Positions 12,695 through 55,312 of a stretch of 64,000 bases of DNA are shown here, one piece after another (position 1 is the stretch's first letter; every line of letters starts with the position of its first letter). Location of the stretch: contig NZ_AP021888.1 of NCBI RefSeq assembly GCF_011398155.1, positions 1,099,501-1,163,500 of the forward strand. Direction: 5' to 3'. This DNA is from Thiosulfativibrio zosterae. Lineage in GTDB: Bacteria > Pseudomonadota > Gammaproteobacteria > Thiomicrospirales > Thiomicrospiraceae. The notes below the pieces were generated by a model. It worked only from the letters and a program-made list of their open reading frames with translations. It ran no database searches and was not told the DNA's origin. The translations under genes and the position numbers were made by a program.

Positions 12695-13507
12695 TTAAGA
12701 TAGCTCTGTTGTCTTCAGAAAATTCTGCCATTCGGCAAAAAGTTCTGGGGTGGTTGCCGCAACAGCAGAGCGCTTAGTGACGGTTGGTACTAAAACGGAC
12801 TCGCCATTCAGCGCAGCGCTTTGACCACCTGCTTCATTTAAAATGAGCCATCCTGCGGCATAATCCCAAATATTTTGTGCACCATGACAATAGACTTGTC
12901 CGCGACCTGCCGCAATCCAACACCAATCTAATGCAACCGAGCCAAAACTTCTTTGAGAGGCAAATGGTGGCGTGACAGCCAGGGTTTGTGCTAATTTTGC
13001 GGGTAGCCTTTTGAAATCAATAATTCCAATACACTGCTTAAGGGCTGTTTTAGCTGTTTTGGCAATGAGCGTTTTGTTGTTGAGTTCTGCGCCTAAGCCT
13101 AAGCGTGCGCCAAACATTTCATCGCGATAAGGATCGTAAATTAAGCCTGCAACCACTTGTCCTTTAACAACCAACGCTAAAGAAACTGAGAAAAATGCTA
13201 TGCCACTGGCAAAGTTACTGGTGCCATCCACTGGGTCAAGAATCCAGCAACCCTGTTCTGATGAAAGCGCAGTCGTTTGATCTTCTGAGGTTGACTCTTC
13301 ACCAAGGAATGCATATTTCGGCCAATGGGCTAATAAGAAGGCTTGGCTTTTAATTTGCATTTGGGTATCAGCTTCGGTCAGCAATGAACCATCTTGCTTA
13401 ATTTCAGCAGACACTTTATTAAAACGGCTCAGCACTTCCTGTTTGGCTAATTCAATGATGCCTGTTTTGAGTTTTTGCCATTCTTGAGCGTTATTAAAGT
13501 GATTCAT
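12695..13507 (-). CDS. Inositol monophosphatase family protein (SuhB-like)
   Basis: The protein has the metal-binding signatures of the lithium-sensitive phosphatase superfamily: GEES in the first motif, ILDPVDGTSNF in the second, and WDYAAGWLILNEAGG near the C-terminus. Substrates in this family include inositol-1-phosphate, PAP and histidinol phosphate, and the motifs do not discriminate. The open frame extends upstream to 13609 inside the preceding gene, but the ATG at 13507 (MNHFNNAQEW) gives a normal 270-residue enzyme and overlaps the upstream stop by 14 nt, implying coupled translation. The 35 residues before it are basic and unlike the family. Confidence 0.9.
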   Translation of the reverse strand: MNHFNNAQEWQKLKTGIIELAKQEVLSRFNKVSAEIKQDGSLLTEADTQMQIKSQAFLLAHWPKYAFLGEESTSEDQTTALSSEQGCWILDPVDGTSNFASGIAFFSVSLALVVKGQVVAGLIYDPYRDEMFGARLGLGAELNNKTLIAKTAKTALKQCIGIIDFKRLPAKLAQTLAVTPPFASQRSFGSVALDWCWIAAGRGQVYCHGAQNIWDYAAGWLILNEAGGQSAALNGESVLVPTVTKRSAVAATTPELFAEWQNFLKTTELS

Positions 13508-14816
13508 GTGTTTCTTCCTTTTTAAAAGTCGCTTCACTTTGGTCTTCTCGAATAGTGAGTTTGACCTTTTCGATGGCATTTGCAGAACGCTCAACCACTT
13601 CAAGCACATAGGTGTCTTTCAATAATAAGCAGGTTCCTACTTCCGGTAACGACTCAAGTTGTTCTTGGATTAGACCGTTTAAAGTCTTGGGTCCATCAAT
13701 CGGTAGTTGAAAATTATATTCTTTGTTGATGTCACGAATAAATTCGCCTGCATCAAAGGTGATAGAGCCATCTTCATTAAAGAGCGTGGTTTCTTCTTCT
13801 GGATCTACTCGAGAGTCGGTCGTTAATTTACCGACGATTTCTTCCAGTAAGTCTTCCATGGTGAGCAAGCCTTGGATGTCACCATATTCATCAACAATCA
13901 TCGCCATGCGGCGTTTATTTTGATTAAACTTCGCCAATTGGATATTTAAAGTGGTGGTTTCTGGCACAAAATAACCAGGCCTGGTCACTTTTATAATGTC
14001 TTTGAGGGTTGCATCTTCTTTTAAAAGAACCGGCAAAGCGCGTCTAAGATTTAAAATGCCAATAAAGTCATCATCAATACTGCCGCGATAAATTGGAATG
14101 CGAGTGTAGGGCGATTTTTGGATGTCTTTAATGATTTTTTTCAGGGGTTGGTCAACATCAACGCCATAAATATCTTGTTTGGGCATCATGACATCTTCAA
14201 CGGTGACCGATTCTAAACGCAAAATACTGGTCAGCATACTGCGATATTGTTGCGGCAATTGTCCGGTTGCTTCATCAATCAGCGTTTGCAGTTCTTCTTG
14301 TGTTAGGCTGTGGTGATCAACGGCATTTTCTTTAACTCGAACGCCTAATAAGCTGAGTAAGTTATTTGAAAAGAAGTTAATCATGGCCACTAAAGGCGAC
14401 AATATTTTAAGCAGTGGCGTTAGCGCGTAAGCGGCTGGGTAGGCGATTTTTTCTGGATAGAGCGCCGCTAAAGTTTTTGGCGCAACTTCTGAAAATACCA
14501 ATACCACCATGGTGAGTAAACCTGCGGCAATGGCAATACCGGCTTCGCCCATCAAGCGCATGGCAATAATGGTTGCGATCGACGAGGCGAAGATATTAAC
14601 AAAGTTATTGCCAAGCAAAATCACACCCAGCAAACGATCGGGCGACTCTAGAAGCTTTTGAACTCGAATGGCTTTGGGGCAACCTTCGTTAACGCGATGC
14701 TTTAAACGGTATTTATTAAGGGCCATCATGCCCGTTTCAGAACCTGAAAACAGGGCTGACAAAATAATGAGTAGGAATAAAATTCCAAAAAGAAAAGGTA
14801 AGGGTAAGGTACTCAA
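13494..14816 (-). CDS. CNNM/CBS/CorC_HlyC-domain membrane protein (CorB/YfjD-like)
   Basis: The 440-residue protein has an N-terminal DUF21/CNNM membrane domain with SGSETGMMALNKYRLKHR, a pair of CBS domains in the middle (TRIPIYRGSIDDFIG-like and MIVDEYGDIQGLLTMEDLLEEIVG segments), and a C-terminal CorC_HlyC domain. Relatives are linked to Mg2+/Co2+ transport or efflux. The first codon is TTG; no ATG lies upstream before stops, and starting later would delete the first conserved helix, so TTG is likely real. One copy of the CCAGGCCTGG repeat lies inside (13975-13984), encoding TRPGYF. It overlaps the IMPase-family gene downstream. Confidence 0.9.
   Translation of the reverse strand: MSTLPLPFLFGILFLLIILSALFSGSETGMMALNKYRLKHRVNEGCPKAIRVQKLLESPDRLLGVILLGNNFVNIFASSIATIIAMRLMGEAGIAIAAGLLTMVVLVFSEVAPKTLAALYPEKIAYPAAYALTPLLKILSPLVAMINFFSNNLLSLLGVRVKENAVDHHSLTQEELQTLIDEATGQLPQQYRSMLTSILRLESVTVEDVMMPKQDIYGVDVDQPLKKIIKDIQKSPYTRIPIYRGSIDDDFIGILNLRRALPVLLKEDATLKDIIKVTRPGYFVPETTTLNIQLAKFNQNKRRMAMIVDEYGDIQGLLTMEDLLEEIVGKLTTDSRVDPEEETTLFNEDGSITFDAGEFIRDINKEYNFQLPIDGPKTLNGLIQEQLESLPEVGTCLLLKDTYVLEVVERSANAIEKVKLTIREDQSEATFKKEETHESL
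13975..13984 (+). repeat. CCAGGCCTGG repeat inside the CorB-like gene
   Basis: Exact copy of the palindromic core; on the + strand it continues TCACTTTTA, matching the family flank. On the gene's strand it is read ACC AGG CCT GGT. Confidence 0.85.
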
Positions 14817-23174: not shown

Positions 23175-24932
23175 ATGAGTACAATAGTTGACATTAAAGT
23201 TCCCGATATTGGTGATTTTGCAGAAGTTGAAGTGATTGAAGTGCTGGTGGAACCTGGCCATGAGATTATTCAAGACGATTCTTTACTAACCCTAGAATCT
23301 GACAAAGCCACCATGGAAATTCCAGCGCCCTTTGCAGGTAAGCTCATTTCTTTAACCGTTGCTATTGGCGACAAAGTTAAAGAAGGTACCGTTATCGGAC
23401 AAATGGAAATTGCCAATGTCGAAACGGTTGCAGCCAATGTGGAAGAAAGCGTTACCGCCACCGCAGAGCCAGAAAAAACAGTTGCCCCAGCTGCAGCGAC
23501 GGATGTTCCTGTTGCTGACAAGCAATGTGAAGTTTTGGTGTTAGGTTCTGGGCCTGGTGGTTATACGGCAGCTTTCCGTGCGGCAGATTTGGGCAAAAAA
23601 GTCATTATGATTGAGCGTTACGCTAGCATTGGTGGCGTCTGTTTGAATGTGGGCTGTATTCCTTCTAAAGCCTTATTGCACATGTCGGTGGTTTTGAATG
23701 AAACCCGCGAAATGCATCACCATGGCATTACCTTTGCAGAACCACAAATAGACACCAATAAAATGCGTGCCTTCAAAGATGGTGTTATCAATAAACTGAC
23801 CGGCGGTTTGTCGGCTTTGGCTAAAGCACGCCAAGTTGAAGTGGTGCAGGGTTATGGCAAGTTCAGTTCTTCACACACAGTTACCGTCGAAAAAGCCGAT
23901 GGCACGACCGAAACCATTGGCTTTGAAAATGCCATTATCGCGGCGGGTTCTCGTGTGGTTAAACTACCATTTATCCCACATGATGACCCTCGTGTGATGG
24001 ATTCTACCGATGCGCTTGAGTTGGCAGAAATTCCTAAGCGTATGCTGGTGATTGGTGGCGGCATTATCGGTTTGGAAATGGCGCAGGTCTATGATTCACT
24101 TGGCGCTAAAATCACGGTAGTGGAACTGGGTGACACCATTATTCCCGGCGCGGATAAAGACATTTCTAAGCCGTTGTTAAAGAAAATTCAAAAGCAATAT
24201 GAAAATGTTTTCTTGAGTTCAAAAGTCACAAATGTTGAAGCCAAGCCTGAAGGGTTGGTGGTGACTTTTGAAGGCAAAAAATGTCCAGCCACGGATACTT
24301 TTGATCGCATCTTAGTCGCCGTTGGTCGTGCACCTAACGGTAAATTGATTGATGCCGACAAAGCCGGTGTTGCGGTCAATGACTGGGGCTTTATCGAAGT
24401 CGATCAGCGTCAAAAAACCAATGTCGATCACATCTACGCCATTGGGGATATTGTTGGGCAACCCATGTTAGCACACAAAGCTGTTCACGAAGGAAAAGTG
24501 GCTGCGGAAGTGATTGCTGGCTTGCCAAGTGCCTTTACACCGATGAGCATTCCATCAGTGGCCTATACTGATCCAGAAGTGGCTTGGGCGGGTAAAACTG
24601 AGCAACAACTTAAAGACGAAGGCATCGAATACGAAAAAGGTGCTTTCCCATGGGCAGCTTCTGGCCGTAGCTTAAGCCTTGGGCGTGACGAAGGTTTAAC
24701 CAAAGCCTTATTCTGTGCCGAAACGCATCGTTTATTGGGTGCGGGTATTGTCGGACCTAACGCAGGTGAACTGATTGCTGAAGCCATGTTGGCGATTGAA
24801 ATGGGCGCTGATATGCAAGACATTGGGCTCACCATTCATCCGCACCCAACCCTGTCAGAAACCCTAGGGTTTGCGGCAGAAATGGCGGAAGGCACCATTA
24901 CCGACTTGTTGCCACCGAAAAAGAAAAAGTAG
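23175..24932 (+). CDS. lpdA: Dihydrolipoyl dehydrogenase with N-terminal lipoyl domain
   Basis: E3 reoxidises dihydrolipoamide with NAD+. Ordinary E3 proteins have about 475 residues; this one has 585 because residues 1-80 form a lipoyl domain with Lys44 in ESDKATMEIP, near-identical to the domain of AceF. An Ala/Glu-rich linker follows, then the FAD domain (VLGSGPGGYTAAFRAADLG), the redox disulfide GGVCLNVGCIPSK, the NAD domain (GGGIIGLEMA), and the HPHPTLSE catalytic His-Glu. Such lipoyl-E3 fusions are known in Neisseria and some other beta/gamma lineages. The gene starts 17 nt after aceF behind GGGAG. Confidence 0.97.
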   Translation: MSTIVDIKVPDIGDFAEVEVIEVLVEPGHEIIQDDSLLTLESDKATMEIPAPFAGKLISLTVAIGDKVKEGTVIGQMEIANVETVAANVEESVTATAEPEKTVAPAAATDVPVADKQCEVLVLGSGPGGYTAAFRAADLGKKVIMIERYASIGGVCLNVGCIPSKALLHMSVVLNETREMHHHGITFAEPQIDTNKMRAFKDGVINKLTGGLSALAKARQVEVVQGYGKFSSSHTVTVEKADGTTETIGFENAIIAAGSRVVKLPFIPHDDPRVMDSTDALELAEIPKRMLVIGGGIIGLEMAQVYDSLGAKITVVELGDTIIPGADKDISKPLLKKIQKQYENVFLSSKVTNVEAKPEGLVVTFEGKKCPATDTFDRILVAVGRAPNGKLIDADKAGVAVNDWGFIEVDQRQKTNVDHIYAIGDIVGQPMLAHKAVHEGKVAAEVIAGLPSAFTPMSIPSVAYTDPEVAWAGKTEQQLKDEGIEYEKGAFPWAASGRSLSLGRDEGLTKALFCAETHRLLGAGIVGPNAGELIAEAMLAIEMGADMQDIGLTIHPHPTLSETLGFAAEMAEGTITDLLPPKKKK

Positions 24933-24976
24933 TTTTAAGCGTTTTAAAACAACACTTACAATAGGTTTTTGCCCTT

Positions 24977-25026
24977 AAAACCCCACCAAAAATAACCAGG
25001 CCTGGTCAATTTTAGTGGGGTTTTTT
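24977..25026 (+). terminator. Terminator of the pdh operon containing the CCAGGCCTGG repeat
   Basis: AAAACCCCAC (24977-24986) pairs with GTGGGG plus the T-run ending at 25026. The upper stem is the repeat core at 24996-25005 flanked by AAAAATAA and TCAATTTTA. The stem is about 23 bp long with few mismatches. Confidence 0.88.
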
Positions 25027-25076
25027 GCTTTTATAGCCAATATGAATGCGCTCTAAGTGCCTGATGGAGATTTTCT

Positions 25077-30254: not shown

Positions 30255-30296
30255 GCTAAAAATAACCAGGCCTGGTCATTTTTAATGAGCTTTTTT
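30255..30296 (-). terminator. Terminator with CCAGGCCTGG repeat after a GGDEF gene
   Basis: GCTaAAAATaACCAGG pairs with CCTGGTcATTTTTaatgAGC. The core lies at 30266-30275 and the right flank reads TCATTTTTA. It lies just 3' of the minus-strand GGDEF gene that ends at 30295 and precedes the helicase gene. T-runs are present on both sides. Confidence 0.75.
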
Positions 30297-35488: not shown

Positions 35489-36163
35489 ATGACCACAGAG
35501 ATTCAAGAATTAGGCATTTTGCCAGCCACCACAGAAGCCTATCAGTTGATTTATGCGGACGAAGATTTGGTGGTGGTGAATAAGCCCACTAAATTATTAA
35601 CAGTGCCTGGTCGGCATCCCGCCAATCATGATTGCTTGGTCAGTCGTGTTCAAACTGAGTTTGCAAGCGCCATGGTGGTACATCGTTTGGATTACGATAC
35701 CTCAGGCCTGGTTATTTTACCCCTGAATAAAGCGACTTTATCGGATGTGAGTAAACAGTTTCAAGCGCGCACAGTTCACAAACAATACACGGCAATTGTA
35801 GATGGTTTGATGACGGACGATGTTGGTGAGATTGATTTGCCGATTGCTAAAGATGACGCCAATCCACGATGCTACAAAATTTGTACCCAAACAGGCAAAC
35901 CTTCTGTGACACGCTTTGAAGTGCTGGCCAGAGATTTTGAAAAACAGCAAACGCGTGTTTTGCTCAAACCCATCACAGGGCGCTCTCATCAATTGCGTTT
36001 ACATTTGCGTGCCTTGAGTCATGCCATTTTGGGCGATGAATTTTATGCGTCCCCCAGGGTTTTAGACGCATCTCCAAGATTATTACTCCACTCTAATCAG
36101 ATCGAATTTGTACATCCTGTGAGTAAAGCGTTGCTCACATTTAATAGCGTCGTGCCTTTTTAA
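35489..36163 (+). CDS. RluA-family pseudouridine synthase
   Basis: The 224-residue protein contains the catalytic motif VHRLDYDTSGLVIL, where the Asp of RLDxxTSG is the nucleophile for uracil-to-pseudouridine conversion in rRNA or tRNA, and the TGRSHQLRLHL motif of RluA enzymes. It lacks an S4 domain, as RluA does. Its exact target is not clear. Three nucleotides separate it from the next gene. A one-mismatch repeat (TCAGGCCTGG, 35702-35711) lies across the catalytic motif codons. Confidence 0.92.
   Translation: MTTEIQELGILPATTEAYQLIYADEDLVVVNKPTKLLTVPGRHPANHDCLVSRVQTEFASAMVVHRLDYDTSGLVILPLNKATLSDVSKQFQARTVHKQYTAIVDGLMTDDVGEIDLPIAKDDANPRCYKICTQTGKPSVTRFEVLARDFEKQQTRVLLKPITGRSHQLRLHLRALSHAILGDEFYASPRVLDASPRLLLHSNQIEFVHPVSKALLTFNSVVPF
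35702..35711 (+). repeat. TCAGGCCTGG repeat variant inside the pseudouridine synthase gene
   Basis: It differs from the core in one base and continues TTATTTTA, near the family flank. Codons are TCA GGC CTG GTT, encoding SGLV of the catalytic motif. Confidence 0.6.
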
Positions 36164-43006: not shown

Positions 43007-43055
43007 AAAAAAGCCCTAAATCTAACCAGACCTGGTTAAATTTAGGCGGTTTTTT
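43007..43055 (-). terminator. Terminator with CCAGACCTGG repeat variant after the pirin gene
   Basis: AAAAAAGCCcTAAAT..TAACCAG pairs with CTGGTTA..ATTTAgGCggTTTTTT. The core at 43026-43035 has one change from the consensus. The right flank reads TTAAATTTA. It lies 3' of the minus-strand pirin gene. Confidence 0.82.
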
Positions 43056-48669: not shown

Positions 48670-51600
48670 ATGAAAGCACTCGCCTTAACCATCCAAGCCT
48701 TTGGCCCCTTTGCCGATACCCAAACCATCGACTTTAATGCGTTTGGCGACAGTTCACTGTACCTGATTAATGGCAATACGGGATCGGGTAAAACCACTCT
48801 TTTGGACGCCATCAGTTTTGCCCTGTATGGCGATACCACCGGTAAAGAAAGAGATGCCACCGAGATGCGCTGCGATTATGCCAATGCGTCCTTACTCACG
48901 CAAGTCACCTTTGAATTTAAACTCGGGTCAAAAACCTATCGCATTCAACGCATCCCCAAGCAAGATGCGCCCAAAGCCAGAGGCGAGGGGATGACTTCTA
49001 AAGGCCCAGAAGCCTATTTATGGGAAATCCATGGGGATGCTTCAACCACTTTGCTGGCCTCTAAAAAAGTCACCGAAGTTACCCAAAAGGTGATTGAACT
49101 GCTCGGTCTTAACAGCGAACAATTTAGACAAGTGATGGTGTTACCCCAAGGGCGCTTTAGAGAACTGTTATTAGCCGATTCTAAAGATCGAGAGGAGATT
49201 TTTAGCCAGTTATTTCAAACCCAAATCTACAAACAAGTCGAAGACAAAATTAAAGAACAAGCCAAAGAAGTCAGTGACCAAATCAAGGCTTTTGAAACCA
49301 AGATTGCCGGTATTTTAGAAACCGTAGAGTTAAGCTCAAGCGATGCCGTAGACACAGAAATAACAACCCTTGCAGTTGAACATCAAATCAAGCTTCAGCA
49401 AAAAAACGACCTGGGTCAAGCACATCTAAAAGCCATCAAACAACATCAAGCAGGGCTTAATTGTCAGCAACAGTTTGACAACTTAACCGCTCAGCAAGAA
49501 AGGTTAAGCATCCACCTCAAAGAACAACCCAACATAGATCAATTAAAAGCGGCCATGAAGCGTGCGCTCTCGGCACAAAAAATCAGTCCTATGTTTGAGC
49601 AGATGGAATTACTCACCCAAGACAAACTTAAACTGGAAAATACTCTTCAAGATTTAAGGGTGTCTAATCAACAAGCCATTCAAGTCCTAGCAACGGCAGA
49701 ACAGTCGGCCAAAACCGCCAATGACAATGCCAAAACCATTGAGCAGCTTAATCGAGAACTAGACAAGCTGCAAAGCTATCAAGACGCGCTTCAAAAATTA
49801 CAACTCGCCCACGCAGACATGCAAACTGCGCATCAAGCGGCACAGCATCAGCAAGCCAACCTAACTCAAGCACAAGTGTCCATACAAACGCTTAAAGCCG
49901 CACAACACTCAGCCGAGCAGAGTTTAGAAGGCTTGCAAGCCCTTGTCACTCAAGAAACAGATGCAAGATTAAAGCAAGCTCAACTGCAAGAACAGCTGAA
50001 AATGGTCGCGGAGCTTGCCAGACTTGAATCGCTACTGAGCCATAAAAAACAAGAAGGCGAGCAAGCCAATCAACAAGTGCAAATCGCTTTGCAAGCACTC
50101 AATGCTGCCGAACAAACTGCAACAGAATGTCAAATGCGCTGGCACCTAGGGCAAGCCAATATTCTGGCAAAAACCCTCAAAAACAACCAGGCCTGCCCCG
50201 TCTGTGGCAGTTTAGAGCATCCTCAGCCCGCTCAATGGCAAGATGCCAGTCATGAAATAGAGCAATCCCATGTAGATGCCGCATTTGCCCAAGTGGCGGC
50301 TTGTCAGAAAAAACACGCTGAAGCCAGTAATCACTTAACCGCTCTTAGAACCCAATACTCAGAATTAAAATCTCAGCGCGATCAACTCAAACACGCTTTA
50401 ACAACCGATGCCTCTGTTGAAGCCTTAAATCAGTCCTTGGCTGACATTCAAAACCAGATACAACACATTGAGTCCGCCAAGACGGAACAGAATAATACTC
50501 AAGCCAATCTTGGCAATATCAAACAACAACTTTCAGCCCTAGAAGCTAATCTGCAAGTTTTACAAACCGAAGTTTATCATTTACAAACGCAAGCCCAGTT
50601 AAAACACCAGGCCTGGTCAGATTTACAAACCCAGCTCCCAGAAGCCTACCGCAATTTAGAGGCATTAAACTCGGCTATTAACAATTTGCAACAGCGTTTA
50701 GCCGAGTTAAAGCAAGCTCAAGAAACCGCAAGACTGGCATTAGAAGCGGCAAGAAGTCGAGCCGATAAAGCACAGCAGTCGCTTGAAAGCAGCCAACAAC
50801 AGCTTAAAGACTTAGCGCAAAAACAAGCAGCTAGTCAGCAACAATGGCAAATGGCACTCGAGGCGAGCGACTTCAAAGATGTAACGGAATTTAAGTCGGC
50901 ACTATGGTCAGCGCAAGCGTTAGAGCAGCATCAAAAAACCATCAACACCTATGAAGAACAGCTCAACCAAATCAACGGTGCGATTCAACAACTTCAAACT
51001 AGCCTAGCAGATCAAGCAGCGCCCGACTTAAATCGCTTACAACAACAAGTGGATGAGGTTAAAGTTTTGCTGGATAACGCAGAACTTGAGTTTAAAGCGA
51101 TTGATCAAAGAGTCACGCTGCTGAAATCCGTTCAACAAAAACTCGCCCTTGCTCATCAAGAAAACCAAACTCTGCAAGATGAATATCACTTGATAGGCAC
51201 TCTAAGCCAAGTGCTCTCGGGTGCTGCGGGGGATAAGGTTAATCTACAAAGGTTTGTGTTGAGCTTGTTGTTAGCTGATGTGTTAGAGATTGCCTCGTTA
51301 CGCTTAAAAATGATGAGCAATGGTCGTTATGAGCTGATTCGCAAAGAAGATAAAAGCAAAGGCAATAAAACATCCGGCCTAGATTTAGAAATTTTAGACA
51401 CCTGGAATGACAGCAGCCGGGGCGTTGCAACCCTCTCGGGTGGCGAATCCTTTATGGCGGCATTGTCTTTAGCCTTAGGCTTGTCTGATGTTGTGCAGTC
51501 TTATTCGGGTGGCATCAAACTCGATACCCTGTTTATTGATGAGGGCTTTGGCAGTTTAGACCAAGAGTCACTGGATCGCTCCATTGAAATGCTTAAACAG

Positions 51601-51723
51601 CTTCAAGCCAGTGGGCGCAGTATTGGCATAATTTCTCATGTGTCTGAGTTGAAAGAACAAATGGCAATGAGGATTGATGTGCATGCCAGCGGGCAGGGCA
51701 GTTTTTTAAAGGTAGTGGTTTAA
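48670..51723 (+). CDS. sbcC: SbcCD nuclease subunit C (Rad50-like)
   Basis: SbcC is a Rad50-like SMC ATPase. The 1017-residue protein has a Walker A NGNTGSGKTT near the N-terminus, two long Gln/Ala-rich coiled coils, a zinc-hook CPVCG at the midpoint (Cys509 and Cys512), a signature ATLSGGESF, and Walker B LDTLFIDEGFGSLD. Two of the repeat copies lie inside: one is exactly at the hook (50187-50196), the other at 50607-50616. The gene starts 11 nt after sbcD. Confidence 0.96.
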   Translation: MKALALTIQAFGPFADTQTIDFNAFGDSSLYLINGNTGSGKTTLLDAISFALYGDTTGKERDATEMRCDYANASLLTQVTFEFKLGSKTYRIQRIPKQDAPKARGEGMTSKGPEAYLWEIHGDASTTLLASKKVTEVTQKVIELLGLNSEQFRQVMVLPQGRFRELLLADSKDREEIFSQLFQTQIYKQVEDKIKEQAKEVSDQIKAFETKIAGILETVELSSSDAVDTEITTLAVEHQIKLQQKNDLGQAHLKAIKQHQAGLNCQQQFDNLTAQQERLSIHLKEQPNIDQLKAAMKRALSAQKISPMFEQMELLTQDKLKLENTLQDLRVSNQQAIQVLATAEQSAKTANDNAKTIEQLNRELDKLQSYQDALQKLQLAHADMQTAHQAAQHQQANLTQAQVSIQTLKAAQHSAEQSLEGLQALVTQETDARLKQAQLQEQLKMVAELARLESLLSHKKQEGEQANQQVQIALQALNAAEQTATECQMRWHLGQANILAKTLKNNQACPVCGSLEHPQPAQWQDASHEIEQSHVDAAFAQVAACQKKHAEASNHLTALRTQYSELKSQRDQLKHALTTDASVEALNQSLADIQNQIQHIESAKTEQNNTQANLGNIKQQLSALEANLQVLQTEVYHLQTQAQLKHQAWSDLQTQLPEAYRNLEALNSAINNLQQRLAELKQAQETARLALEAARSRADKAQQSLESSQQQLKDLAQKQAASQQQWQMALEASDFKDVTEFKSALWSAQALEQHQKTINTYEEQLNQINGAIQQLQTSLADQAAPDLNRLQQQVDEVKVLLDNAELEFKAIDQRVTLLKSVQQKLALAHQENQTLQDEYHLIGTLSQVLSGAAGDKVNLQRFVLSLLLADVLEIASLRLKMMSNGRYELIRKEDKSKGNKTSGLDLEILDTWNDSSRGVATLSGGESFMAALSLALGLSDVVQSYSGGIKLDTLFIDEGFGSLDQESLDRSIEMLKQLQASGRSIGIISHVSELKEQMAMRIDVHASGQGSFLKVVV
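50187..50196 (+). repeat. CCAGGCCTGC repeat variant at the SbcC zinc-hook codons
   Basis: It is one mismatch from the core and is preceded by AA; the last bases are part of the hook's TGC (Cys509). Codons are CAG GCC TGC. Chance similarity is possible for this single copy. Confidence 0.5.
50607..50616 (+). repeat. CCAGGCCTGG repeat inside sbcC
   Basis: Exact core, continuing TCAGATTTA as in the family. The codons are CAC CAG GCC TGG TCA GAT TTA (HQAWSDL). Confidence 0.85.
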
Positions 51724-51757: not shown

Positions 51758-52766
51758 ATGATGAACTGGTTTGAAAAATTAACAGGCTTTACCGAAACCG
51801 ACTATCTCACCACACAATCGCAGTTGAGTCTGCAAGGCGAAACTCTGGTTTGCTTGCCCAGCGGCAAACGCTATCAAGCTGGGCTTCTTTTAACACCCAC
51901 ACTGGCAGACTTACGCCAAAAAAACCGCTTTATTGGCGCAAGATAAACAGCCAAATCAGCTGTCGGAATGGGTGGGCGATGTGCAAGTCTTGCATCAAGA
52001 CCCTAAAAATCAAAACGCCATTTTCCAAGTTGCCTCGCAATTTAATCTACTAGAAATGGTGTCGCCCCGCGTAACCCCGCTAGCAGGTATTACGGGTTAT
52101 GCATATGACAAAACCCAAGGCCCTGTTTGTGCGATGGCCTGTGCAGCAGGAACGCTTTATCGAAATTATCTAGTGGACATGGCAGGGCAGAAAGGGCAAA
52201 CAGACCAATGCCAGCTGAATATGCTCGATGAATTCGAGCGAGCGGCCAATCATAAAAAACACGGTTTTTGGACCATGCAAAACGGTTATGTCATGCCCAG
52301 CAAGCCAGGCCTGGTTAAATTTAAGCAGTTTTTAAGCGCTTTAAGCACAGAAGAAGCAGAAAATCTTAAAGCCTTAATCAAAGTCGGTCTGCAACAAAAT
52401 ACCCAAGTCACCCTAAACCAAGCACAGCATTGTGTGAGTCAAGTGTATTGTTCTGCCTTGCCATTGGCTTATCACCCTTATCAAGACGACCTCTGGCAAC
52501 CTTTCGCGCAGTGGGTGCTAGATGCCGCCTATGAAGCCACTTTTCATCACGCACTCCTAGAAAAACACCGCACCGGAAACCGACGCATCTACCTCACTTT
52601 ATTGGGAGGCGGCGCCTTTGGAAATCCAACGGATTGGATTATCCATGCCATTGAAAAAAGTTTGCATCAATTTGCAAACTGCAATTTGGAAATCATATTT
52701 GTCAGCTATGGGCAAAGCAGTCAGGCCGTGCAAAGCCTGTTAAAAAGAGCAGGCGTATCCATATGA
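51758..52766 (+). pseudogene. Conserved hypothetical gene split by a +1 frameshift in an A7 run
   Basis: The first frame (51758-51946) encodes MNWFEKLTGF...LADLRQKNRFIGAR and stops. The second frame (to 52766) continues LAQDKQPNQLSEWVGDVQVLHQDP, FQVASQFNLLEM, TQGPVCAMACAAGTLYRNY, and ends LTLLGGGAFGNPTDWIIHAI. From memory of related proteins, these form one protein of about 335 residues in a conserved uncharacterised family, resembling macro-domain folds near the GGGAFGN motif. The break is at 51918-51924 (seven A); with six A the frames join as LRQKTALLAQDKQ. It could be a sequencing error, an inactive allele, or a polymerase-slippage site. An exact repeat copy lies at 52305-52314. Confidence 0.8.
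52305..52314 (+). repeat. CCAGGCCTGG repeat inside the frameshifted gene
   Basis: Exact core, continuing TTAAATTTA. Codons are CCA GGC CTG GTT AAA TTT (PGLVKF). Confidence 0.85.
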
Positions 52767-55271: not shown

Positions 55272-55312
55272 GCCCAAAAACAACCAGGCCTGGTTATTTT
55301 TAAGCGCTTTTA
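55272..55312. terminator. Bidirectional terminator with CCAGGCCTGG repeat
   Basis: GCccAAAAAcAACCAGG pairs with CCTGGTTaTTTTTaaGC around the exact core at 55284-55293, followed by TTTTA. The adjacent genes are convergent, and T-rich ends are present on both strands. Confidence 0.75.

Follow-up and report, generated by a model that had tools for sequence, protein, structure and literature searches.

The window (the whole 64-kb stretch of DNA analysed, positions 1099501-1163500 of a contig that starts with dnaA) contains lpd, a gene for dihydrolipoyl dehydrogenase, whose product shows 81-86% identity, over the best segments, to the proteins of Thiomicrorhabdus and Hydrogenovibrio genomes that head the list of matches; this places the organism in the Thiomicrospira group. 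A short palindrome lies between this gene and the next one. Together with it, eight copies are listed in the window, and all of the features below are without strand.

13975..13984, core copy CCAGGCCTGG inside the CNNM/CorC-like gene (13494-14816, minus strand); both arms moderate
24996..25005, intergenic core copy, between lpd (23175-24932) and the gene after it; strong AT arms on both sides
24946..25055, whole dyad around the 24996 copy, made up of the core and 50 bp on each side, a reach taken from the genome-average phased AT profile
30266..30275, core copy between the DEAD-box helicase and GGDEF genes; complete YANWTTTA on both sides
35702..35711, degenerate core TCAGGCCTGG with one mismatch, inside the ORF 35489-36163; T-run of the right arm one base shorter
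43026..43035, degenerate core CCAGACCTGG with one mismatch, between the genes for FemAB-like and pirin proteins; both arms judged good by eye
50607..50616, core copy within sbcC (48670-51723), with weak arms
52305..52314, core copy inside the ORF 51933-52766 (no Pfam match); right arm only
55284..55293, core copy between the convergent DTW-domain and GGDEF genes; both arms strong

Distribution along the chromosome

The 12-mer core, ACCAGGCCTGGT, occurs 289 times on the single contig of 2,645,427 bp, and its reversed control does not occur there. The inner word CAGGCCTG has 409 copies in 2.65 Mb, or roughly one every 6.5 kb. The repeat unit is a dyad, and its full core is perfectly palindromic. 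As a sample we used 58 evenly spread 20-kb stretches and the window (1.224 Mb, 46% of the genome, with 6570 N in all, within two of the 58 stretches), which contain 160 copies of the ten-mer core and 135 exact 12-mers, five of the latter in the window. The copies are under-dispersed (counts per 20 kb, index 0.48, P 0.0003), the coefficient of variation of the gaps between the first 100 exact 12-mers is 0.75 (P 0.001), and the copies avoid each other, as only one gap is shorter than 1 kb against 10.9 expected. Thus, a short palindrome is repeated hundreds of times, and unusually evenly, along the chromosome. One of the 58 stretches is free of copies; it has accessory-looking genes (ankyrin, CHAT, CHASE2, TPR and secretin; eight ORFs searched, three of them without a Pfam match). 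In the open (non-subscription) literature, no description of the core repeat was found among the matches listed, no work joined 'uptake sequence' with Thiomicro- names or Thiomicrorhabdus with natural transformation, and the string CCAGGCCTGG appeared, among the matches listed, in a Toll-like receptor paper.

According to a crude longest-ORF gene set, on which the split rests, 93 of the 160 sampled copies (58%) are genic and 67 are intergenic. The intergenic copies might suggest a REP/RAYT-type or other dispersed element that was spread by copying, and a Y1_Tnp (RAYT-like) match is present in 35 of the 62 genomes of the same GTDB family, including that of the window. However, REPs form intergenic clusters linked to a RAYT gene, whereas most copies of the core are genic and evenly spaced, avoid each other and have arms whose letters vary. 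Furthermore, there are motif-rich genomes without a Y1_Tnp match (G004, G012, G013, G014, G022, G025, G029 and G031 among them), and the REP-like repeat of the window's genome is a different one, AGGCTAAAGCCT. We therefore rejected this explanation, which we consider extremely unlikely. The repeat AGGCTAAAGCCT itself, with a GC-rich continuation (approximately KCGCCCC), has 63 copies in the sampled 46% of the genome; they are clustered, 62 of them are intergenic, and none is in the window. It is densest (15 copies) in the stretch G000:C1:2601311-2621310 (L168), which carries the sole Y1_Tnp match of the genome, at 2603005, and looks like an ordinary REP/RAYT system.

Symmetry and helical phasing of the flanks

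The earlier note described an AT-rich flank, YANWTTTA, on the 3' side of the core. As to the letters, this was confirmed: the pattern CCTGGTYANWTTTA is found on the + strand at 13980, 25001, 30271, 43031, 50612, 52310 and 55289, thus in seven of the eight listed copies (0.01 expected from shuffles), and the tail of the 35702 copy reads TATTTTAC, one base shorter as claimed. The perfect one-sided fit is post hoc, however, since the consensus was written from the same eight copies. The pattern also matches the minus strand at 30257-30270, which is the mirror arm of the 30266 copy. Counted by eye, the left arm fits YANWTTTA at six or more of the eight positions in five copies (13975, 24996, 30266, 43026 and 55284) and at fewer than six in the other three (35702, 50607 and 52305). 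All eight copies had been said to share the + orientation; the tail letters do fit on that strand, but because the core is a perfect palindrome, an orientation has no meaning apart from the tail.

The alignment of the sampled copies shows AT-rich conservation beyond the 10-bp core, as the note had proposed, on both sides. In the 135 exact 12-mers, the information content of tail and mirror image is nearly equal (left and right, 0.94 and 1.11 bits at distance 6, 0.83 and 0.90 bits at distance 7, with a second rise at 15-18), and a complete YANWTTTA was counted 31 times on the right and 28 times on the left. For scoring the arms, a weight matrix was derived from the sites outside the window; by this measure, the right arm was the stronger in 83 of the 160 copies (Wilcoxon P 0.63). 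With replichores split at half the contig, it was stronger in 40 of 80 copies on the right replichore and in 43 of 80 on the left; hence the suggested dependence of orientation on the replication direction was not observed. There was no effect of gene strand either (sense-side arm stronger in 45 of 93 genic copies). The mean arm score at the sites was +8.3 bits, against -10.9 for random 20-mers; both arms exceeded 3 bits in 106 copies, one arm in 42 and neither in 12, and the arm strengths of one site were correlated (Spearman 0.39). Among tandem intergenic copies, the stronger arm was downstream in 13 of 42 and thus oftener upstream (P 0.023, one of several tests). The nearly equal information content and the symmetric arm scores led us to reject a directional tail in this genome. 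A replication-strand signal of the Chi or KOPS kind was likewise rejected for the palindrome, and no such signal was seen in the asymmetric dialect of T. cannonii described below.

Instead of a one-sided unit of about 18 bp, as first described, the repeat is a dyad with phased AT tracts that reach about 50 bp on each side. The AT content around the core oscillates with a best period of 10.75 bp, and, when both sides of the 93 genic and 67 intergenic copies are pooled, the tracts lie 5-8, 16-19, 26-29 and 37-40 bp from the core edge, with a weak one at 49-52 bp; measured from the dyad, the first tract is at about 11 bp. On either side taken separately, the first two tracts are present. In intergenic copies, the AT fraction of the first three tracts is 0.99, 0.98 and 0.94; genic copies have the same phased arms, although weaker. 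The letters of the arms vary within this AT/GC pattern. The tract-minus-trough contrast is 0.44 for the motif and 0.18 for CAGGCCTG lacking the outer pair (29 sites), and it is within 0.01 of zero for the control words (GGCC outside the motif, other GGCC six-mers, TGGCCA, AGGCCT without the outer bases, and GCGC). Therefore, the phasing belongs to the motif word.

One possible explanation of the flanks is that the repeat is mainly a bidirectional transcription terminator, with ACCA-GGCC-TGGT as the hairpin and the T tracts beside it. In fact, the copies are five- to eight-fold denser between genes (0.64 per kb in tandem, 0.63 in convergent and 0.45 in divergent gaps) than in genes (0.084 per kb), and the left and right sides of intergenic copies show a slight pairing excess (11.4 against 10.4 matches, sd 0.27). 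However, tandem gaps are as dense as convergent ones, divergent gaps still have 0.45 copies per kb, and a terminator would not need a core that is fixed family-wide. Moreover, the 93 genic copies carry phased arms, albeit weaker, without a pairing excess (7.3 against 7.6), so that termination is insufficient as the main role; as such we regard it as highly improbable.

Another explanation is that the repeat is a chromosome-organising site, at which a dimeric cytoplasmic protein, either DNA gyrase or a nucleoid protein, would wrap about 110 bp, and that this wrapping would account for the two-sided phased tracts and the even spacing. The symmetric AT/GC periodicity out to about 50 bp, which the control words lack, and the regular distribution of the copies both agree with it, and the motif is present in genomes without a PilT match (see below). 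The E. coli gyrase motif, as described in parts of PMC6379681, is symmetric, about 130 bp long, and has a GC periodicity of 10.75 bp in its arms; this identical period keeps the wrapping explanation in play. On the other hand, according to the same parts of that paper, the centre of the gyrase motif is degenerate and the periodicity is confined to the outer arms, beginning only about 16-20 bp from the cleavage site, whereas here the core of 10-12 bp is fixed and the first tract is about 11 bp from the dyad. Considering also the evidence from relatives given in the next section, we judge a wrapping site rather unlikely. If the function is nevertheless chromosomal, evenly spaced wrapping sites that are encoded in 10-12 bp would be no less unexpected than the uptake tag proposed below.

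Dialects in related genomes

The core of the respective dialect is present in 236 to 1173 copies in 35 of the 62 genomes of the family, that of the window included; the remaining 27 have at most 67 copies. Outside the family, each of 365 genomes (from a class-wide sample of 369) has at most five copies of ACCAGGCCTGGT. The dialects comprise ACCAGGCCTGGT, forms with the half-sites AACAGG and AGCAGG, TACCGGCCGGTA, and the asymmetric AACAGGCCGGGT. Many of the family's genomes are rich in the inner word CAGGCCTG. One genome, G025, has 1025 copies of ACCGGCCGGT, in which both half-sites are changed alike, while every other genome has at most 15. Similarly, ACAGGCCGGGT has 503 copies in T. cannonii (G022) and 293 in G071, against at most nine in the others. 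The dialects are not always clean, since T. chilensis (G017) mixes the half-sites AACAGG, AGCAGG and ACCAGG.

We looked for another dialect, as an excess of 9-mers in 80 kb each, in four motif-poor genomes, and found none in G008, G034 and G066. In the 80 kb of the fourth, G027 (g6), there is a weak excess of ACCAGSCTGGT-like sequence (words of the CCAGSCTGG type, 7-8 against 0.3-0.4 expected), which may be a relic or else a dialect whose centre is odd. The 80 kb of G008 contain a repeat of the CCTCTTATAAACC type, whose 9-mers have 15-18 copies against at most 1.2 expected.

At individual sites, the position of the 13975 copy within the CorC-like gene is also occupied in two relatives (L035 and L036). 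A copy directly abuts the lpd stop codon in 4 of the 28 loci examined; the outer bases of these copies are AG/CC (L032), AA/TT (L034), GC/GT (L035) and AC/GT (L052). On the 3' side of lpd in L036, about 20 bp seem to interrupt a copy (GCCAGGCC...GGTTGTTTTTGA), whose right arm is retained. In other loci (L031, L033, L037, L043, L044 and L047, and L048 as judged by eye), lpd is directly followed by a hairpin-containing sequence (..AAATGGTCACATGC..GCATGCTCAACATTT..) that is about 90 bp long and similar among them; a pattern for it gave matches in six loci, twice in L047.

The arms are less widely shared than the core. In profiles from 6 to 50 sites per relative, with z values that treat positions as independent, the first tract is clear in H. 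halophilus together with WB1, in G024 and in L035/L036 (contrast z 3.9 to 5.2) and weak in the AACAGG group (z 2.9), and it is the only tract in G025 and L047. No arm contrast was found in these profiles for most of the sampled g5 genomes, G028, G063, G081 and L043/L037; the sole g5 genome with a contrast is G032 (z 3.7, from six sites). Thus, the shared part is the core, and no other genome has long phased arms as strong as those in the genome of the window. That the arms are weak or missing in many relatives which share the core, and lie on one side in T. cannonii, argues against the wrapping explanation, and a dialect switch at hundreds of sites would not be expected of a conserved essential enzyme.

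In T. cannonii the repeat is one-sided. From 104 sites in 399 kb, AAAAAACTCAACAGGCCGGGTA emerges as the conserved string; A-tracts are found 6-11, 20-23 and about 30 bp away on the left only, and to the right of the core little is conserved past the first base. Consequently, the directional, Haemophilus-like form that the note had imagined does not hold for the window's genome but does hold here, with an asymmetric core and AT tracts on one side. In 16 stretches of the 660-kb contig, 38 copies are on the + strand and 44 on the - strand, and they alternate more than expected by chance (z 2.28); with such mixed orientation, the asymmetric dialect does not follow replication. Seven inverted pairs of copies, 13-23 bp apart, were found, and these could form terminator hairpins. 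One T. cannonii stretch of 20 kb (L231, G022:C1:100001-120000) has no copy, as compared with 2 to 8 in each of the other 19; its genes are Tn7-like (TnsA-like, rve/Mu-C, TniB and TniQ) and lie beside a type I restriction system. The comparison of islands consists of two copy-free stretches only, this one and the one in the window's genome.

The palindromic form and the dialects also recall the highly iterated palindromes of cyanobacteria (HIP1), and a HIP1-like repeat could be made by a methyltransferase and a linked bias of mismatch repair. As described in parts of PMC4390886, cyanobacterial HIPs are abundant, lineage-restricted palindromes that are replaced by other GC-rich palindromes in some genomes, similar to what we observed, and they go with matching methyltransferases. 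GGCC is common to the main dialects here, and some motif-rich relatives, including six of the nine g5 genomes (one weakly), have PF01555 matches. However, a search that covered the two methylase families PF00145 (C5) and PF01555 (N4/N6) gave no match to either in the window's genome, G017, G022 or G025, and all nine g5 genomes, which are motif-rich, lack PF00145. A HIP linked to a C5 or N4/N6 methylase is therefore not supported for the window's genome. Neither the phased arms nor the asymmetric dialect follows from methylation, and we consider a HIP1-like origin quite improbable.

A possible tag for self-DNA uptake

On balance, though with modest confidence, we propose by analogy that the repeat is an uptake-sequence-like tag of self-DNA, a palindromic counterpart in the Thiomicrospira group of the DUS and USS. 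This proposal is based on the abundant core, the dialects by clade, the even spacing, the phased AT tracts and the inverted pairs, a set that matches DUS/USS; the absence of copies from the Tn7-like stretch may also fit. As in those systems, hundreds of copies are shared by a clade, dialects occur, and the orientation has no replication-linked bias.

The USS of Pasteurellaceae, which are evenly spaced, resemble the present repeat in the short, GC-containing core, the high copy number, the clade-wise dialects and the lack of orientation bias. Parts of PMC1626085 describe AT-rich segments of the USS about one helical turn apart, the first of which consists of A's followed by T's; the tracts here are also one helical turn apart, so that the likeness to the Haemophilus AT segments drawn in the earlier note was apt. 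On the other hand, the USS has two AT segments on one side of a non-palindromic core, an arrangement approached by the one-sided form of T. cannonii, whereas in the window's genome the core is palindromic and its two-sided arms extend to about 50 bp, further than the USS segments; for this reason we do not file the repeat as a USS. The present repeat also belongs to a different family and is less dense: about one copy per 6.5 kb is several-fold below the density of about one per kb given for DUS/USS in parts of PMC1626085.

The DUS of Neisseriaceae, in the parts of PMC3630211 and PMC7371117 that describe them, likewise have family-wide dialects and inverted pairs at terminators. They are also depleted in islands, with which the two copy-free stretches seen here may agree. 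A palindromic tag would have a precedent in Simonsiella, where 1294 overlapping DUS occurrences in dyad symmetry were noted, as a possible hint of dimer-based recognition (part of PMC3630211). When we overlapped the two 12-mers AG-king and simDUS, taken from parts of PMC7371117, the resulting dyad was TTCAGGCAGCCTGAA, which also has the form CAGG...CCTG. The differences are that DUS lack flanking AT motifs, according to parts of PMC1626085, that DUS copies are more numerous (about 1900 to nearly 6000, part of PMC3630211), and that 5'-CTG-3', reported in the parts of these DUS papers as fixed in all DUS dialects, is lost in the CCGGCCGG dialect here.

If the uptake-tag proposal is correct, a surface receptor of the competence machinery would read the GC core, either as a dimer or in either orientation. 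In known systems such a receptor is a minor pilin, and for Pasteurellaceae PpdA/ComN is predicted, rather than demonstrated, in parts of PMC12616744. Bending or kinking at the AT tracts, one helical turn apart, might enable the DNA to be drawn through the outer membrane, and ComEC would then import one strand. Recombination would return tagged alleles to the chromosome and thereby spread and maintain the tag, and reader and sites might drift together into dialects.

A more specific form of this proposal, to which we give slightly less than an even chance, is that chemolithoautotrophic sulfur bacteria have a third system of self-DNA uptake tags: palindromic, open to reading from either side, flanked on both sides by helically phased arms, and with halves that change together when the dialect changes, while the T. 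cannonii lineage broke the symmetry towards a one-sided, USS-like form. If so, nature would offer a graded series in which symmetric tags pass into directional ones. According to a statement of 2006, uptake sequences were known only from Neisseriaceae and Pasteurellaceae (part of PMC1626085). If free-living sulfur oxidisers have a palindromic version that forms dialects, this would make the origin of tags, the switching of dialects and the role of AT segments addressable in a new family, and the symmetric and directional forms would serve as a matched pair for these questions.

The genome of the window has a ComEC match in a frame of 834 aa and two PilT-family matches over the cut-off, side by side. 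Across the family, however, the competence genes do not track the motif, which argues against an uptake tag. A full-looking ComEC was found in 32 of 35 motif-rich and 23 of 27 motif-poor genomes, in a coding that counts as full four g2 genomes with matches under the cut-off. A long PilQ-like secretin was found in 27 of 35 and 18 of 27, respectively, where long denotes a match near E 1e-50, the best of each genome, and no genome passes the cut-off of the model itself. No PilT-family match over the cut-off was obtained in the motif-rich genomes G004, G013, G029, G035, G057, G059, G070 and G080 or in the motif-poor G003 and G074; G062, G069 and G082, with a single or partial PilT match, were coded as half. 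Five of the motif-rich ones (G004, G013, G029, G057 and G059) have a completeness of 99% or more, and in two of these, G013 and G029, the long secretin is missing as well. Thus, neither ComEC, the long PilQ-like secretin nor PilT follows the motif, and the loss of competence genes is not supported as the cause of motif loss. Also against an uptake tag are the low density, the mixed half-sites of some genomes, the phased arms, which extend beyond the reach of USS segments and of which most g5 and several g3 genomes show little or nothing, and T. cannonii, which is motif-rich and yet has a split comEC. Between the two parts of this gene, C1:50689-51309 and C1:88072-89325, lie about 37 kb; among the motif copies listed, none falls in this interval, which we do not count as evidence. 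Both parts are on the same strand, as would be expected if a mobile element had been inserted into the gene.
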